From Burkholderiales bacterium (GTDB lineage: Bacteria > Pseudomonadota > Gammaproteobacteria > Burkholderiales > Casimicrobiaceae), in contig JADZDD010000033.1 of assembly GCA_020851235.1 (NCBI GenBank), positions 1 to 58,854 on the forward strand: a stretch of 58,854 nucleotides of DNA. The letters are read 5' to 3'. Shown in pieces: positions 3,669 to 10,194 of the stretch. A model generated the notes under the pieces. The model did not search any database. It was not told the DNA's origin and saw only the letters and a list, made by a program, of their open reading frames with translations. Within the stretch, counting starts at the first letter, position 1, and the number at the start of each line of letters is the position of its first letter. The translations under genes were made by a program, and so were the position numbers.

Positions 3669-3983
3669 TCATTTCATGCGCGGCTTGTGCGCCTCGACGT
3701 AGGAGCGCAACACGGCATTGATGCGCGACTGATACCGCGTGCCCATGTGCCGGAAGAACTCCAGTACGTCCGCATCGATGCGCAGCGTGATCTGCTGCTT
3801 GCTTCGGGGCAACTGCGCCGCAGCCTTCATCCAGATGGCATCCGGGCGCAACGGCGCATCGCTGGTGTCGATCTTCTCGTCGGGCATCGCGGCGAGCGCG
3901 GTCAAGCGCGCCTTTTGCTCGGCGGTCAACGGCGGCGGGTTTGACCGGTCAAGCGTTAGCTTCACGGTATTGCTCTTGCTCAT
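3669..3983 (-). CDS. brnA: BrnA-type antitoxin
   Basis: 104 aa. The second half holds KQQITLRIDADVLEFFRHMG followed by a helix ending SYVEAH, a ribbon-helix-helix type fold typical of BrnA, the DNA-binding antitoxin that neutralises BrnT and represses the operon. The ATG at 3983 lies inside the end of the toxin gene (35-bp overlap), giving the toxin-first order normal for BrnTA. The open frame continues upstream of 3983, but that part is out-of-frame brnT sequence and is not used. The N-terminal half (DRSNPPPLTAEQKARL) is the family's toxin-contact region. Confidence 0.87.
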   Translation of the reverse strand: MSKSNTVKLTLDRSNPPPLTAEQKARLTALAAMPDEKIDTSDAPLRPDAIWMKAAAQLPRSKQQITLRIDADVLEFFRHMGTRYQSRINAVLRSYVEAHKPRMK

Positions 3984-4227
3984 GCGACAGTGCCCTTCGT
4001 GCGGAAATGATGCGAATGGTGTCTTCGTGCCGGACGGTGTAGACCACGTACAGGATCGCCACGTGGACCTGCCCGATGGTGGCCCAGCGATCTTCCCCGT
4101 AGTCCTCGCGTCCGTCATGGATCTCGAGACGCCCGTCGTCGAGAAAGACTCGAGCCGCGTCCTCGAAGGCAACGCCGTGCTTCTTGAGATTCCGCGCCGC
4201 CTTGCTCGCGTCCCACTCGAAGTCCAT
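3949..4227 (-). CDS. brnT: BrnT family ribonuclease toxin
   Basis: 92 aa, normal BrnT length. Family signatures are FEWDASKAARNLKKHGV at the N terminus, FEDAARVFLDD in the middle, and RIISARRALSHEQEQY at the C terminus. BrnT is a RelE-fold ribonuclease that stops translation when free of BrnA. Upstream is a perfect 16-bp palindrome and a TACAAT box ending 7 nt before the ATG, so the operon is probably autorepressed and may be transcribed leaderless. AGG lies 5 nt before the start. Confidence 0.92.
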   Translation of the reverse strand: MDFEWDASKAARNLKKHGVAFEDAARVFLDDGRLEIHDGREDYGEDRWATIGQVHVAILYVVYTVRHEDTIRIISARRALSHEQEQYREANA

Positions 4228-4682: not shown

Positions 4683-5423
4683 CTACACCGCGCTTGCCAC
4701 CACGACGTAACGCAGCGGCCCGCCCGGAGCGATCGCATCGAACGGGTAACAGGTGACGAGCGTGAGCGTCGGCACCGGGGTATCGCGCGGCAAGCGCAGC
4801 GCCCGCTGATCGGCGACGTACGCGGCGTCGACGCGGAACCGATGCACGGTGCCGTCGCGGCGTTCGACCAGAAGATCGTCACCGTTCGCAACCGCGCGCA
4901 GGAAGCGAAAGTGCGTATCGCGGTGCGCGGTGACGATCGCATTGCCGGCGTCCCCCGGGAGCGCCGAGCCGTCGAGATGTCCGGGGCCGAAGGCGAGCGT
5001 GCGCCCGGAGGCGCCTGCGAGCACCAGCATTTCGGTCTCCTGCGCCGGTGCCCGCAACCGGGCGATCGCGTGCGTGTCGGCCCACGGCCACGGCGGCGTG
5101 GGCTCTCCCGTCGCCTGCTCGTGCTGCCACGCACGCTCGAGGAGCACCTGCGCGAGGCGTGCCTTGGCATGGATGTAGAGCCCTTCGCCAAAGAGGAGCG
5201 CACCGCCGGCGGCGAGCCCGGCAACGGCGAGCGTCAGCACGCGCTTCAGGCGCACGCGCGCCGGGGCCGGCTTGGGGTCGCGCGCCGGCGTGCCACCGCC
5301 GATCGGGGAAGACTCGCCCACCGGATCGTGGCGCGCGATGCCGGGCGCGCTCGCCCGCATCCAGTTGCGCGTCCCGGGCGTGGGGTGGACGACAGGTCCT
5401 CCCCGATCGGCAGTGGCATGCAT
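4683..5423 (-). CDS. Class GN sortase (dedicated proteobacterial sortase)
   Basis: 246 aa. One membrane segment (about residues 60-82) follows a 58-residue Pro/Arg-rich cytoplasmic leader. The sortase core has all three catalytic residues: His167 in TAHRDTHF, Cys225 in TLVTCYPF and Arg238 in PLRYVV. Sortases cleave a C-terminal sorting signal and transfer the protein to a nucleophile; class GN enzymes occur in Gram-negatives, where the acceptor is not established. The start at 5423 has a strong AAAGGAGA site; the upstream target gene ends 20 bp before. The enzyme and its probable sole substrate are thus co-transcribed. An upstream in-frame extension is target-gene sequence. Confidence 0.93.
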   Translation of the reverse strand: MHATADRGGPVVHPTPGTRNWMRASAPGIARHDPVGESSPIGGGTPARDPKPAPARVRLKRVLTLAVAGLAAGGALLFGEGLYIHAKARLAQVLLERAWQHEQATGEPTPPWPWADTHAIARLRAPAQETEMLVLAGASGRTLAFGPGHLDGSALPGDAGNAIVTAHRDTHFRFLRAVANGDDLLVERRDGTVHRFRVDAAYVADQRALRLPRDTPVPTLTLVTCYPFDAIAPGGPLRYVVVASAV

Positions 5424-5443
5424 CGTGGATCTCCTTTGGATGT

Positions 5444-7618
5444 TCAGGCGGCGACGCCGGGTGCCGCGCGCAGTCGCCAGGCGAAGGCGGCGGCGAGGAG
5501 GAGCGCGAGCGCGCCTGCGAGCATCAGGGCGCTGGCCGGGGTCGCGGTCTGCGGCAAGGCATCGAAACCGGTGAGCCCGTCGGGAATGTTGCCGGCGATG
5601 GCATCGGTGCGCAGATCGACGCCGGCAGCGCGCGCCGGCGTGACGTCCACCGCGACGAGACTCGTGTAGCGCGATACGAGGTGGTGCGTGAGCGCGACAT
5701 CGAGCACCGCGCTGCGCATCTCGTCGGCCGGGGCGCCGCGCCGGGCGGCGTCCATCAGCGCGGCGATCTTGGCGCGCGCCCACAGGACGCCGACGCCCGC
5801 CGCCGGCGCCGCACCCGTGCTGGGTACGAGCATCCCCCACGCGCTTCCCGCGTGCCGCCCGGATACCGCGACGTTGCCGCCGCTGGTCGCGAGTGCGTCG
5901 GCATTGAATTGCGCCGTCACCACGACGGGCTCGCCCGCGTACAGATCCGGCACGAGGCGCGGCCAGGCGTCCGCGCCCGCCGGCCAGGCGACGTCGATGT
6001 CGGTGAGTGCGGGATGGTCGAGCTTGCGAAACAGCGCCGTCATCCGGGTCTCGACTTCACGCACGTCGCCGATCGCGGTGTACGTGCCACGGCCGAACTG
6101 AGCGGCCTTGGTCATGAAGAACATGTTGGGCGCCGGCCCGATGCCCACCGTGAAGAGCCGACGATCGCCCAGCCGCTCGTCGACGAGCTTCAGGATCGCA
6201 TCCTCGTTGCCGACCGCGCCGTCGGTGAGGAACACGACCTGGCGCAGGATCGACGCCGTGCGCTCGCCGGCGAGCGCGATCTCCAGGGCCGGCAGCATCT
6301 CGGTCCCGCCGTGGGCACGCAGGCCGGCGACGAAGTCCTGGGCACGTCGCGCGGTCTCGACGTCGTAGGGCAGCGGCGCCGCAAAGAGCGAGCGCGTGCC
6401 CGAATTGAATTCGATGACGTTGAAACGGTCGCCCGGCTGGAGACGGTCGAGCGCCATCTGCAGCGCGGCACGCGCCTGCGTCATCGAGACACCCTCCATC
6501 GAGCCCGAGGTGTCGATGACGTAGGTGATCTCGCGTGGCGGGCGGGCGGCGCCGGTGTCGGTCGCGACCGGCGGCAGCGCCACGAGCAGCGCGTACGTCT
6601 TGCCGCCTTTCGTCTCGGTGAAGAGCGTGGCGCGCGGTTCCGTACCGGTCGCCGGCCGGTAGGCGAGTTCGAAGTCACGCGCAGCCGGGACCGGGCCGTC
6701 GGCGAGTTCGAGCCGGTAGCGGTGGTTTCCCAGCGATTCGATACGCAGCGGATGGTACGCACTCGAAAGCGCTTCCAGCGGAAAGCCCGCATCGAGGTCG
6801 ATGCGCAGGCGCACCGGCAACACGTAGCCATCGCGGCGCGGCACGACCGGCGGTGTGATGCGGTCGGCATCCGGGACCGCGACGGTCGGCAGCGCGCGGC
6901 CGAGCAGGTTCTGCGCCGCCACCGCGGGCGCGCCGGGGATGTAGCGCGGCGTGATCGCCAGCGGGAAGCGCAGGCGGAACGTCCCGTCGTCGTAGCGCAG
7001 CGTCTCCTGGTATTCGATCGTGATCGCGATCTCGTCGCGGGGTGCGATGTTGGCAACACTCGTGGTGAAGACGTTCGCGCGCTCCTGTTCGACGAGTGTC
7101 GCCTTGAAGCCGGCCTGCTTCGCGGCAGCGTAGGTGTGCGCCGCCTCGCCGCGCTCGCGAATCACGCCTTCGATCTCGCGCTCGCCGATGCGCATGCGCA
7201 GGTGGTCGACCGCCGCCTTCTCGGACAAGGGAAAGACGTAGACGCCCTCGCGCCATTCGTCGCTGGGGTTGACGAAGCGCTGCGTCACGGTGACGCGCGC
7301 GATCATTGCCGTGATCTTCATGTCGACGTCGGTGAACACGAGCGGCGATTCGCTGCGCTCCCCGCCGGCAGCGGTGAGGTAGAGCGTGCCGGACGGATGC
7401 GTCGGGGTCGCGGCGAGCGCCGGGCTCGTGACGACGAAGACCGCGAGCGCAAGCACGAGGCTTGCGGCGAGCCCCGCGGCGAAGCCTTCGAGCAGGAGCC
7501 GCACGAGCATTCGCCATTCGTGGCGCAGGATCCGCGCTCCCGCGCCAGGGCTGCCGCGTGGCGTCGTCTGCGCCGTGCCGATCGCGCTCGTCGTGGCTGC
7601 CTTTGCTGCACTCGTCAT
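5444..7618 (-). CDS. VIT/VWA-domain sortase target protein
   Basis: 724 aa. Order: membrane/signal segment at about 38-70 ending SPALAA; VIT domain about 75-205 (VTVTQRFVNPSDEW, VYVFPL); a linking region; a VWA domain from about 365 with the MIDAS sequence DTSGS (369-373) and FLTDGAVGNE; and a C-terminal sorting signal with LPQTA at 688-692, a hydrophobic helix and a short Arg-containing tail. The architecture matches the marine proteobacterial sortase target family, which pairs with class GN sortase. It is expected at the cell envelope, probably as an adhesive or protein-binding surface factor. GGAG lies 11 nt before the ATG. No second LPxTG-like protein occurs in the window. Confidence 0.93.
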   Translation of the reverse strand: MTSAAKAATTSAIGTAQTTPRGSPGAGARILRHEWRMLVRLLLEGFAAGLAASLVLALAVFVVTSPALAATPTHPSGTLYLTAAGGERSESPLVFTDVDMKITAMIARVTVTQRFVNPSDEWREGVYVFPLSEKAAVDHLRMRIGEREIEGVIRERGEAAHTYAAAKQAGFKATLVEQERANVFTTSVANIAPRDEIAITIEYQETLRYDDGTFRLRFPLAITPRYIPGAPAVAAQNLLGRALPTVAVPDADRITPPVVPRRDGYVLPVRLRIDLDAGFPLEALSSAYHPLRIESLGNHRYRLELADGPVPAARDFELAYRPATGTEPRATLFTETKGGKTYALLVALPPVATDTGAARPPREITYVIDTSGSMEGVSMTQARAALQMALDRLQPGDRFNVIEFNSGTRSLFAAPLPYDVETARRAQDFVAGLRAHGGTEMLPALEIALAGERTASILRQVVFLTDGAVGNEDAILKLVDERLGDRRLFTVGIGPAPNMFFMTKAAQFGRGTYTAIGDVREVETRMTALFRKLDHPALTDIDVAWPAGADAWPRLVPDLYAGEPVVVTAQFNADALATSGGNVAVSGRHAGSAWGMLVPSTGAAPAAGVGVLWARAKIAALMDAARRGAPADEMRSAVLDVALTHHLVSRYTSLVAVDVTPARAAGVDLRTDAIAGNIPDGLTGFDALPQTATPASALMLAGALALLLAAAFAWRLRAAPGVAA

Positions 7619-7706
7619 GGGGTGCTCCGTTCGTCGTTGAAATGGGGCCGGCGGTCACTGCCTTCGTTCGCGCCGACGACGCCCGCCGGCGGCGCGTCCC
7701 CGGTCC

Positions 7707-7719
7707 CGTGCATTGCACG
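7707..7719. promoter_or_regulatory. 13-bp palindrome between sortase target and response regulator
   Basis: CGTGCATTGCACG is a perfect 6+1+6 inverted repeat about 90 bp upstream of the sortase target start and 133 bp upstream of the response regulator. It could be an operator, but short GC-rich palindromes also arise by chance here. Confidence 0.35.
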
Positions 7720-7771
7720 CGCGCAACGGGTCGGGCGCAGGGCCGAATCGGGGCGAAGCAGCGAAGAAATG

Positions 7772-7802
7772 TGGCAAACCGATGGCAACTGCGCCCGGCA
7801 AC
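7772..7802. promoter_or_regulatory. Direct repeats, candidate response-regulator boxes
   Basis: TGGCAA occurs at 7772-7777 and 7783-7788, exactly 11 bp apart, and a related GGCAAC begins at 7797. OmpR-type regulators typically bind direct repeats one helical turn apart. Position between the divergent sortase and regulator operons fits a shared control site. Inference only. Confidence 0.4.
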
Positions 7803-7836
7803 GGGAGGCGCCGGCGCGCCGCCTCATCCGCTGCGC

Positions 7837-7842
7837 TATAGT
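7837..7842 (+). promoter_or_regulatory. -10 candidate of the pdsRS operon
   Basis: TATAGT ends 9 nt before the ATG at 7852, so transcription would begin at or next to the start codon. No Shine-Dalgarno or clear -35 is seen. Confidence 0.45.
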
Positions 7843-7851
7843 CGCCAGGAC

Positions 7852-8559
7852 ATGAAGCGCATCGCCATCGTCGAGGACGCGGCCGCGATCCGCGCGAACT
7901 ACACGGAAGCCTTGCGCCGGCATGGCTACGACGTCGCCGGCTTCGCTTCGCGCCCGGAGGCACTGGCGGCGTTTCGCACCCGTCTGCCCGACCTCGCACT
8001 GGTCGACATCGGTCTGGGCGACGAAGTCGACGGCGGCTTCACGCTCACGCGCGAGCTGCGTGCGATGTCGGCGACGCTGCCGATCATCATCCTGTCGGCG
8101 CGCGATTCCGACTTCGACATCGTTGCCGGATTGCGCCTGGGCGCCGACGACTACCTCACCAAGGACGCGAGCCTGCCGCACCTCGCCGCCCGCATCGCCG
8201 CGCTCTTCCGCCGTAGCGACCTCGCCGGAGCATCTCCCGAAGCCGAGGACATCCTCTCCCGCGGCGCGCTGACGCTCGACGTCAAGCGCCTGACCGCGGA
8301 CTGGCAGGGCAAGCGGGTCGACCTCACGCTCACCGAGTTCTGGATGGTCCATTCGCTCGCCCGGCATCCGGGGCACGTGAAGGACCGCGACGCGCTGATG
8401 CGCGATGCATCGATCGTGGTCGACGACAGCACGATTACCTCGCACGTCAAGCGGATCCGGCGCAAGTTCCAGGCGGTCGACGCCGCGTTCGATCGCATCG
8501 CCACCGTGTACGGCATGGGCTATCGCTGGTCGAGCCAGGCGCCCGATGGCGCGTCGTAG
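7852..8559 (+). CDS. pdsR: Dedicated sortase system response regulator
   Basis: 235 aa OmpR-type regulator. The receiver domain (1-115) has the acidic pair in IVEDA, phosphoacceptor Asp52 in LVDIGLGDE, and the conserved Lys in DDYLTKDAS. A winged-helix DNA-binding domain follows (about 135-228; LTLTEFWMVHSLARHPG, TITSHVKRIRRKF, YGMGYRW). Divergence from the class GN sortase operon and the adjoining kinase identify it as the regulator of the proteobacterial dedicated sortase system. It probably controls the sortase-target operon and possibly itself. The gene ends 15 bp before the kinase start. Confidence 0.9.
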   Translation: MKRIAIVEDAAAIRANYTEALRRHGYDVAGFASRPEALAAFRTRLPDLALVDIGLGDEVDGGFTLTRELRAMSATLPIIILSARDSDFDIVAGLRLGADDYLTKDASLPHLAARIAALFRRSDLAGASPEAEDILSRGALTLDVKRLTADWQGKRVDLTLTEFWMVHSLARHPGHVKDRDALMRDASIVVDDSTITSHVKRIRRKFQAVDAAFDRIATVYGMGYRWSSQAPDGAS

Positions 8560-8574
8560 CGCGGGCGCGGGCGC

Positions 8575-10194
8575 ATGAAGCTGCCGCGCGTCGCGCTGTC
8601 GATTCGCGCGCAGCTCCTCCTCGTCCTCACCGTCTTCCTCGTCCTGCCGTGGCTCGGCGTGAGCTACGTGCGCGAGCTGGAGCGCGTCCTGCGCGATGCG
8701 CACGAGCGCACGCTCGCGGGGACCGCGCAGGCGGTGGCGACCGCCCTGCACGATCGGCCGCGTCTTTTTGCCACGCCGCCCGATCCCATCGCGTCGTTCG
8801 CCCGCGAGCGCGCCGCCGACGCCACGCCCGCCGATCGGGCGCTGCCGCCCTCGGCCTCCCCCGAGATCGCGCAGATCATCGAGGGCCTGTCGCGAACGAC
8901 CGCACGCATCTGGGTGATCGATCGGCAAGGCACCGTGCTCGCGCGCGCTGGCACGCTGAAGCCGGCACCGGCAGCGACGCCACCGGCGTCGCTGTGGGAG
9001 CGCGTCGAGCAGATGACGCTCGGGCGCCTGTACCGGGCGTTTCTCGACCAGCCGCGCGAGGACTTCGTTGACGATGCCGCGACCCAGGGCGCGCCGCACG
9101 GTCGTGACGTCGAGGGCGCGCTCGCGGGGATCCTCACGAGCGAGCGACGACGCACCCGCGACGACCGTGCGGTCATCGTGAGCGCCGCGCATCCGGTGTG
9201 GGTCGGCGATGAAGTGCGCGGCGTCGTCATCGTCGAGGAGACGGGCAACGCGGTGCTCGCCGAGCGCAACCTCGCCTTCGAGCGGCTGTTCAACATCGTG
9301 CTCGCCGTGCTGCTCGTGGGCTCGCTCGCGCTGACCGCGTACGCGACCGTCCTCTCCGCGCGCATCCGGCGTCTGCGCGACGACGCCGAGCGTGCGATCG
9401 ACGCCGACGGCCGGGTGCGCGCGCCGCTCGCGAGCTCGCGCGCCGGCGACGAGATCGGCGACCTCTCGCGGAGCTTCGCGTCGGTGCTTGCCCGGCTCGC
9501 GGGCTATGCGCGCTACCAGGAGAAGATGGCGAGCCGGCTGTCGCACGAACTGCGCACCCCGATCGCCGTGGTGCGCAGCTCACTCGACAACCTGAAGGTC
9601 GCTCCCTCGCCGGAGGCGGCACGCGTGTACATGGAGCGCGCGCAGGAGGGACTTGCCCGCCTGACGCAGATCCTGACGCGGATGGCGGAGGCGGCAAGAC
9701 TCGACGAGAGCCTGTCCGACGTCGAGCGCGAGCGCTTCGACCTCGTCCCCGTCGTGCGCGGTTGCGTCGAGGGCTATCGCCTGGCGTACCCCCGGGGCCG
9801 CATCGACTGCACCGCCGACCCCGCGTCGATCACCATCGACGGCTCACCCGACCTCATCGCGCAGATGCTCGACAAGCTCGTCGCCAATGCCGTCGAGTTC
9901 GCCGGGGGCGGCGCCATCGCGGTCGTCGTGCGTGGCCGCGATGGCGCGGTGGAGCTCGCCGTCAGCAACGAGGGGCCACCGTTACCGGAGGGGATGGAGG
10001 GGCGCCTGTTCGAGTCGATGGTGTCGGTACGCCGCGGCGACGACGCTTCCGGGCCGCACCTGGGACTCGGCTTGTACATCGTTCGGGCCATCGCGCAGTT
10101 TCACCGCGGTCGCGTGCACGCCGCCAACCGGCCGGAAGGAAACGGCGTCACGGTGACGGTGATCCTGCCGCCGGCGGAAGCGTCGTCGCGGTAA
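8575..10194 (+). CDS. pdsS: Dedicated sortase system histidine kinase
   Basis: 539 aa membrane sensor kinase. Transmembrane segments lie at about 13-28 and 240-260, enclosing a periplasmic sensor of roughly 210 residues without a recognisable PAS or Cache signature. A HAMP-like linker follows, then the H-box MASRLSHELRTPIA with phospho-acceptor His324, and an HATPase domain with the N-box LDKLVANAVEFA and a GLGLYIVRAIA G2 box. Co-transcription with pdsR (15 bp gap) makes them a cognate pair. The ligand is unknown; an envelope or surface cue is the obvious guess. Confidence 0.9.
   Translation: MKLPRVALSIRAQLLLVLTVFLVLPWLGVSYVRELERVLRDAHERTLAGTAQAVATALHDRPRLFATPPDPIASFARERAADATPADRALPPSASPEIAQIIEGLSRTTARIWVIDRQGTVLARAGTLKPAPAATPPASLWERVEQMTLGRLYRAFLDQPREDFVDDAATQGAPHGRDVEGALAGILTSERRRTRDDRAVIVSAAHPVWVGDEVRGVVIVEETGNAVLAERNLAFERLFNIVLAVLLVGSLALTAYATVLSARIRRLRDDAERAIDADGRVRAPLASSRAGDEIGDLSRSFASVLARLAGYARYQEKMASRLSHELRTPIAVVRSSLDNLKVAPSPEAARVYMERAQEGLARLTQILTRMAEAARLDESLSDVERERFDLVPVVRGCVEGYRLAYPRGRIDCTADPASITIDGSPDLIAQMLDKLVANAVEFAGGGAIAVVVRGRDGAVELAVSNEGPPLPEGMEGRLFESMVSVRRGDDASGPHLGLGLYIVRAIAQFHRGRVHAANRPEGNGVTVTVILPPAEASSR

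Follow-up and report, generated by a model that had tools for sequence, protein, structure and literature searches.

The proteobacterial dedicated sortase system consists of a sortase, its target, a response regulator and a histidine kinase, with an OmpA-like protein, PdsO (TIGR03789), as an optional member; a single target that adjoins its sortase, and is the sole target in its genome, has been described (PMC3237569). The distribution of the sortase, which belongs to class GN, is stated to be limited to halotolerant proteobacteria in PMC10581121, where betaproteobacterial class GN sortases are also in print, with Denitromonas and Azoarcus as reported carriers. Among the papers listed by our literature searches, with subscription journals outside their scope, there was no functional study of a GN sortase. 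Here we analyzed a cassette of this type from a Burkholderiales bacterium of the family Casimicrobiaceae, which occupies positions 4683-10194 of a stretch of 58,854 nucleotides (contig JADZDD010000033.1, assembly GCA_020851235.1), hereafter called the window. Two modules that also occur apart probably meet in this cassette, a sortase-substrate pair and a CreBC/WalK-like kinase system with a transmembrane microprotein. The cassette type itself is already known; what is new is the signalling half as a separate module, commoner than the sortase in Burkholderiales, and its microprotein partner, which doubles as the leader of the sortase substrate.

The locus agrees with the described system in that its sortase (4683-5423, minus strand), target (5444-7618, minus strand) and regulator (7852-8559, plus strand) all score over the curated cut-offs of their families, in the adjacency of sortase and target, and in having a single target (PMC3237569). 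It differs in the kinase (8575-10194, plus strand), which falls below the TIGR03785 cut-off and has a shorter sensor, and in PdsO, for which the best TIGR03789 match in the window's genome reached 60.8 bits, against a cut-off of 152.2. These results bear out much of an earlier, sequence-only reading of the cassette, which had placed the four genes at 4683-10194, with the regulator and kinase divergent from the target-sortase pair and with His167, Cys225 and Arg238 intact in the sortase. It had also seen no pdsO, and this absence over the cut-off now holds genome-wide. A further difference concerns the co-occurrence of regulator and sortase, which is found in the window but is not the rule: in Burkholderiales the regulator occurs more often without the sortase than with it.

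Results

Distribution of the two-component pair and the sortase

Among 22 genomes of the window's genus, the regulator was found in 19 and the sortase in 12, with a sortase threshold of E ≤ 1e-3 in this genus search and of E ≤ 1e-20 in the order search given below. The two co-occur in all 12 sortase-bearing genomes, and the regulator is kept in 7 of the 10 sortase-less ones, with the kinase adjoining it in all seven; no target over the cut-off was found in these 10 genomes. In 349 Burkholderiales genomes, the regulator is present in 49 and the sortase in 18, with 13 genomes having both and 36 the regulator only, and three of the 13 (G153, G175 and G213) carry sortase genes without the catalytic residues. 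Counting only regulator genomes with a completeness of 95% or more and a contamination of 5% or less, we found no sortase in 23 of 34. Of the 35 out-of-genus sortase-less loci, 34 have the kinase beside the regulator, and the remaining one (L134) is truncated at a contig end. On the side of the target, 25 of the 65 target-bearing loci with enough upstream DNA have no close relative of the regulator (BLAST >150 bits).

The sequence-only reading had taken the cassette for a dedicated, self-contained surface-display module, possibly acquired, in which the regulator and kinase serve only the sortase pair. The presence of the regulator in every sortase-bearing genome of the genus fits this view, as does the window's genome, where the sole perfect operator-like site (see below) lies at the cassette, with one further site that carries a mismatch. 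As a general statement, it is contradicted by the Burkholderiales sample: we do not regard the two-component pair as dedicated, because 36 of the 49 regulator-bearing genomes have no GN sortase match, and the target loci without a close regulator relative also stand against the claim. Moreover, the pair remains under purifying selection once the sortase is lost, with ratios of nonsynonymous to synonymous substitution rates (dN/dS) of 0.05-0.10 for the regulator and 0.10-0.23 for the kinase (four pairs each). Recent acquisition was rejected on several grounds. The GC content of the cassette (0.712) fits that of the rest of the window (0.694, with 5.5-kb windows there reaching 0.713), the regulator-kinase pair groups with its own genus, and in the sortase tree the 12 Casimicrobiaceae sortases form one group, joined only by a sequence from an Acidobacteria metagenome-assembled genome (MAG; L021). 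In addition, the neighbouring murein ligase gene, mpl, adjoins the cassette or a cassette remnant in several members of the window's genus. Overall, we hold a dedicated and possibly acquired module to be very improbable. The L021 sortase, which falls inside the Casimicrobiaceae group, may reflect either transfer or contamination.

A search of 84,980 species genomes with the sortase confirmed 505 relatives, and the best 80 of these were analyzed as loci. By record title, these best 80 of the 505 come from Burkholderiales, Gammaproteobacteria, Nitrospira, Acidobacteria, Rokubacteria, Alphaproteobacteria and others, a range of taxa that does not fit the distribution restricted to halotolerant proteobacteria stated in PMC10581121. 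The earlier description of such systems as belonging mainly to marine gammaproteobacteria was likewise too narrow.

A transmembrane helix encoded divergently from the regulator

In the window, the gene divergent from the regulator is that of the target, which carries an N-terminal helix (residues 34-70, EWRMLVRLLLEGFAAGLAASLVLALAVFVVTSPALAA; positions 7409-7519, minus strand) with a zipper pattern, G45-xxx-G49-xxx-S53. This is the element kept in sortase-less relatives: in 7 of 7 sortase-less loci of the genus, a mini-gene divergent from the regulator begins with the N-terminal helix of the target. Three of these mini-genes (L110, L111 and L118) continue into another membrane helix and a tail with ARQVC or ARCVC at its end, two (L115 and L120) have little beyond the helix, and two (L108 and L119) are interrupted by contig ends. 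The ARxVC cytoplasmic tail of the three ectodomain-less forms is also present on the full-length targets of L004, L006, L012, L017 and L023.

Outside the genus, a profile hidden Markov model (HMM) of 13 target N-termini placed the divergent open reading frame (ORF) top among all six-frame ORFs in 28 of the 35 sortase-less regulator loci, as compared with 1-5 of 35 for 12 column-shuffled HMMs, 2 for the reversed HMM and 2 for a generic signal peptide. With an HMM of the same target region, the divergent ORF was also the best match in 7 of 7 in-genus sortase-less loci, which indicates positional homology between the ORFs and the target N-terminus. A hydrophobic segment is encoded divergently from the regulator in 34 of the 35 out-of-genus loci, and in 30 of them it contains the zipper [SAG]xxxGxxx[SAG], which was found in 33 of 351 other hydrophobic segments of the same loci (Fisher p ~6e-23, comparing loci with segments). 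The 35 aligned helix cores were cut by hand and include the loci missed by the HMM, and the counts taken from that alignment are descriptive, not tests. In Burkholderiales, the usual partner of the signalling module appears to be a zipper-type transmembrane helix, encoded across the operator-like site.

The kept segment could also be read as a promoter-and-signal-peptide cassette, that is, an export signal under a regulated promoter, reused for whatever follows and with no signalling role. The helix is indeed fused to longer stretches in L137, L143, L151, L153 and L158 (tails of 190-315 residues) and in L142 (168 residues), and in Casimicrobiaceae it ends, by eye, in AxA-type sites. However, 17 of the 31 zipper ORFs terminate within 10 residues past the helix and could therefore export next to nothing, and the zipper is far commoner at this place than in other hydrophobic segments; we consider a purely export-related role unlikely. 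The 190-315 residues that follow the zipper helix in the first five of these loci, of which L153 may be incomplete, look by eye like diverged VIT domains. The regulator-divergent proteins of L137 and L143 gave no Pfam match over cut-off, and the N-terminus of L137 matches DUF6890 under the cut-off of that family.

Another explanation is that the mini-genes are what is left of a decaying target, retained only because their promoter and start lie near the regulator. The varying lengths of the remnants favour it, as do L147, L171, L172 and the ARxVC-tailed forms of the genus, which look like deletion products, and the sortases next to reduced targets, which lack the catalytic residues (see below). 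The substitution ratios argue for purifying selection on the mini-genes instead: by pairwise counts on these short genes, 12 of 17 pairs have a dN/dS of 0.28 or less and the remaining five one of 0.36-0.47, with values of 0.16-0.28 in five like-type genus pairs, 0.36-0.39 in two unlike genus pairs and 0.07-0.47 in ten out-of-genus pairs. The persistence of a hydrophobic segment at that place, mostly with the zipper, also stands against decay, which we regard as improbable. When the scanned microproteins were compared with Pfam and NCBIfam, no family was found over cut-off. The microprotein of L147 holds a 36-residue piece of the target C-terminal region (TIGR03788 positions 541-576, E 1.1e-5).

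Loss of the sortase and the target ectodomain

In the regulator-kinase tree, the seven sortase-less members of the genus fall into two clades with support of 100 and 98, the second of which is nested among sortase-bearing lineages. Since the placement is nested and target remnants are still there, at least two independent losses have taken place. Reduction is also found within genus g30, in which G086 has a full target and an intact catalytic triad, and G175 and G213 have a short target without VIT and VWA domains and a sortase-like gene without the catalytic His and/or Cys. L130 and L162 likewise combine a reduced target with a sortase without catalytic residues, so that all four loci in which a sortase-like gene accompanies a reduced target have a degenerate enzyme. 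By contrast, an intact triad was found in all 81 sortases from the window and the 80 loci, with a target recognised in 77 of the 80, and in all nine additional loci that have a full target. The ectodomain and the sortase activity are thus lost together, and the helix is independent of both.

An operator-like site between the divergent genes

Between the divergent target and regulator genes lies a putative operator of the regulator, GAAATGTGGCAAACCGATGGCAAC (TGGCA-N6-TGGCA; 7766-7789, plus strand), proposed on the basis of its conservation. This TGGCA-N6-TGGCA pattern precedes 12 of 53 regulators, as compared with a mean of 0.035 in shuffles. A position weight matrix (PWM) made from ten sortase-bearing Casimicrobiaceae found the site in 7 of 7 held-out sortase-less members of the genus, each at the floor p of 0.01, and in 24 of the 35 out-of-genus sortase-less loci. 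In the whole genome of the window there are two sites with up to two mismatches, the perfect one at the cassette and one with a single mismatch, and the backward-pattern control gave none. The second site (L126:1501-1520; G000:C6:78562-78581) sits between a peptidase-like frame and a cardiolipin-synthase-like frame, upstream of the latter (both names being read from the translations, with no profile), and may mark a second member of the regulon. The 5-6-5 geometry of the operator-like site equals that of the cre tag of CreBC, TTCAC-N6-TTCAC (PMC4689548), and the half-site differs, being TGGCA here and TTCAC there.

The regulator and the kinase

The OmpR-type response regulator scored 372.5 bits against TIGR03787 (cut-off 335.7), and CreB is its next nearest NCBIfam model. 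The kinase, for which the next nearest model is CreC, scored 567.8 bits against TIGR03785, below the cut-off of 612.2, and matches only positions 258-703 of the 703 in the profile because its periplasmic sensor is shorter than that of the model. As estimated by hydropathy, the two membrane helices of the kinase are 193-218 residues apart in 8 Casimicrobiaceae loci; the distance is 322-418 residues in the 15 other loci for which two helices and nothing more were called. The remaining loci had fewer or more segments, or no H-box was found. The likeness to CreBC/BlrAB is a distant one, as the CreB and CreC scores of the window's pair (143.7 and 147.1 bits) are far lower than the respective cut-offs (273 and 356), and the divergent transmembrane microprotein or target is a further difference. 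L144 and L155 have a CreD-family gene after the microprotein.

The model of kinase residues 1-268 (pLDDT 68) predicts a PAS/Cache-like sensor, for which the best Foldseek match is WalK, with E values of 7e-5 to 5e-4; a search with the sensor sequence gave no meaningful match in the PDB. WalK is a kinase under the control of membrane partners. Over 46 kinases, compared with no filter on a pattern in the first transmembrane helix (TM1), mean identity is 0.46 in TM1, 0.40 in the second helix (TM2), 0.35 in the sensor and 0.52 in the catalytic domain. Together, the WalK-like sensor, the ties to CreC and CreD and the likeness of TM1 suggest an envelope sensor that a small membrane helix would tune.

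The sortase, its target and the sorting signal

The sortase has 246 residues, with an ATG at 5423 that we judged plausible, and matches PF04203 and TIGR03784; against the latter it scored 206.6 bits (curated cut-off 158.25) in a scan made on the longer frame, 4683-5840. The profile search confirmed the class GN membership proposed from the sequence alone. The protein consists of an N-terminal segment of low model confidence, one transmembrane helix at about residues 62-80 and the sortase domain. In the AlphaFold2 model (mean pLDDT 85.2, mostly 91-98 in the catalytic domain), a long membrane-type helix is followed by a confident sortase barrel, and the 50 Foldseek matches listed are all sortases, including sortases A, C, D and E at E values of about 1e-10 to 1e-12. 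The enzyme has both the barrel and the catalytic His/Cys/Arg of a sortase, the latter being conserved in all 81 sortases compared.

Among the other classes, class D is the closest by profile (NF058671, 78.4 bits), yet the score is below the cut-off of 140. The best PDB sequence match is 2ln7, with 4d70 in third place, both of SrtD type by title. Class D sortases are LPxTATN-specific, so A-T follows LPxT in their motif too; the window enzyme differs from them in being Gram-negative and in having one substrate. It is the single sortase in the window's genome (3.93 Mb, 98.8% complete). Two variants of this arrangement were met elsewhere: a genome of the genus, G029, has two sortase-target copies, on contigs C193 and C145, and in a Planctomycetota MAG (L077:3-2144) the VIT/VWA target, a sorting signal VGQGATPG and the sortase lie in one ORF, which, if not an assembly error, is a fusion of target and sortase.

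The target (724 residues) ends 20 bases before the sortase ATG and scored 733.7 bits against TIGR03788 (cut-off 551.65). After the N-terminal helix it has a VIT domain (residues 96-203, PF08487) and a VWA domain (residues 363-514, PF13768), and its C-terminal sorting signal (residues 688-724; positions 5447-5557, minus strand) reads LPQT-A-T-P-A, followed by a hydrophobic helix and a basic tail. All features of the target family are thus present, that is, VIT and VWA domains, the C-terminal motif-helix-tail, adjacency to the sortase and uniqueness in the genome. The 20-base gap, the LPQTA motif with its helix and the idea of a single substrate per enzyme had been put forward from the sequence alone, and all of them stand: the genome has one sortase, one target and one sorting signal, and no other signal-bearing protein was found in it, the next match to the signal profile having 12.5 bits and covering the helix part only.

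To see which positions of the signal are constant, we used an unanchored MAFFT alignment of 78 targets; the copy of the window itself (L001) and the loci L018, L019 and L039, which gave no target hit, are not part of it. The most constant columns are P2' Thr (77 targets) and P1' Ala (73); P3 is Pro in 65 targets, P4 is Leu in 45, and P1 is Thr in 62 and Gly in 15. Most of these lineages therefore keep A-T more strictly than L-P, which bears on what class GN sortases read. There are exceptions, and A-T is not universal: in four Burkholderiales targets (L173-L176), PQT is followed by Asp and not Ala, which counts against too general a reading of the motif. In these targets PQTDT or PQTDI replaces PQTAT, and the paired sortases have an intact triad.

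To our knowledge, no acceptor is known for Gram-negative sortases, which would suit an enzyme that acts by hydrolysis as a releasing protease, and not as an anchoring transpeptidase, with the VIT/VWA domain being shed into the periplasm. The role of Gram-negative sortases is also stated to remain unknown (PMC10581121). The fold and the catalytic residues of the window enzyme are, however, those of known transpeptidases, and release by hydrolysis seems to us an unlikely alternative to anchoring.

Neighbouring genes

The mpl gene was considered as a hint to the acceptor and dropped, as among the 80 loci it is nearby only in L005, L007, L012 and L017, which are all from Casimicrobiaceae. A search for an additional gene conserved with the cassette by clustering of neighbours yielded only clade synteny and shadow ORFs. 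A BrnA antitoxin gene (PF14384) and a preceding ORF of 92 residues that looks by eye like BrnT (window positions 3669-4172 and 3949-4227, minus strand) separate the sortase from an ArsC-like gene.

Discussion

We propose that the first module is the class GN sortase with its sole substrate. The target would be exported by Sec, its C-terminal helix would hold it in the inner membrane, and the sortase, as expected from sortase chemistry, would cut between T and A within LPQT-A-T and pass the cleaved target to an amine acceptor in the envelope. The second module would be a two-component system of the CreBC type, with a sensor resembling that of WalK; its regulator would bind TGGCA-N6-TGGCA between the divergent genes, as the conservation of this site suggests, and drive the target-sortase operon and probably its own operon. 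In sortase-bearing genomes, the zipper helix is the N-terminal signal/anchor of the target, and in sortase-less genomes it is encoded alone or as a short-tailed microprotein, or more rarely as the head of another protein.

The most likely mechanism is that the helix lies beside the membrane helices of the kinase and acts on signalling, by reporting or damping it, in the way that MgrB acts on PhoQ, and such a contact could allow the kinase to sense the amount of target made or processed. MgrB is a small membrane regulator of the PhoQ kinase that is controlled by the system it regulates (PMC8404706), and the microprotein would likewise be a small membrane protein controlled by the system it would regulate. 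The likeness concerns the proposed working, with the difference that here the same helix also heads a sortase substrate. By this analogy, the helix may modulate the kinase. The sequences themselves show the co-occurrence, the positional homology, the purifying selection, the conservation of the operator-like site, at least two independent losses and sortases without catalytic residues where the VIT/VWA part is lacking; we infer the DNA binding, the kinase contact, the signal and the acceptor of this scheme. Taken to its full extent, the proposal would be that the kinase has its own transmembrane regulator in the N-terminal helix of the substrate, that a Burkholderiales family of zipper microproteins modulates the CreBC/WalK-like kinase, that the cell reads export or sorting of the substrate through its leader, and that the regulator stays as a gene of about 40-135 codons after repeated loss of sortase and ectodomain. 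We put this forward tentatively, as a possibility that is open to considerable doubt.

Several observations weigh against the reading of two separable modules and of a helix that regulates the kinase. Many of the genomes are drafts, and sortases with E values between 1e-20 and 1e-3 may be present elsewhere in the 36 genomes that have the regulator only, one of which (G073) has a degenerate, sub-threshold sortase-like gene at the locus. Four of the five genomes that initially counted as having a sortase without the regulator (L178-L181) carry a more distant OmpR-type regulator in the same divergent place. With the PWM trained on Casimicrobiaceae, the operator-like site reaches significance in no more than 13 of 34 other loci, of which three belong to that family, and an HMM trained on the 11 Casimicrobiaceae targets alone reaches 16 of 35 loci, not 28. 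In the targets of the first 80 loci outside Casimicrobiaceae, the zipper is rare (1 of 31 regulator-bearing and 1 of 25 regulator-less), and among 14 further Burkholderiales loci that have a sortase-like gene, two of which were in the HMM training set, only nine show it in strict form; on these grounds the zipper helix is lineage-specific. Finally, the model of the kinase sensor is of modest confidence (pLDDT 68), and sensors often have a PAS/Cache fold.

For most carriers in the Burkholderiales sample, the 36 of 49 with no sortase match, the names "dedicated sortase system response regulator" and "dedicated sortase system histidine kinase" are misleading. If the microprotein regulates the kinase, Gram-negative sortase biology would gain a testable input signal, and this would be a case in which a signal peptide survives as a free regulator.

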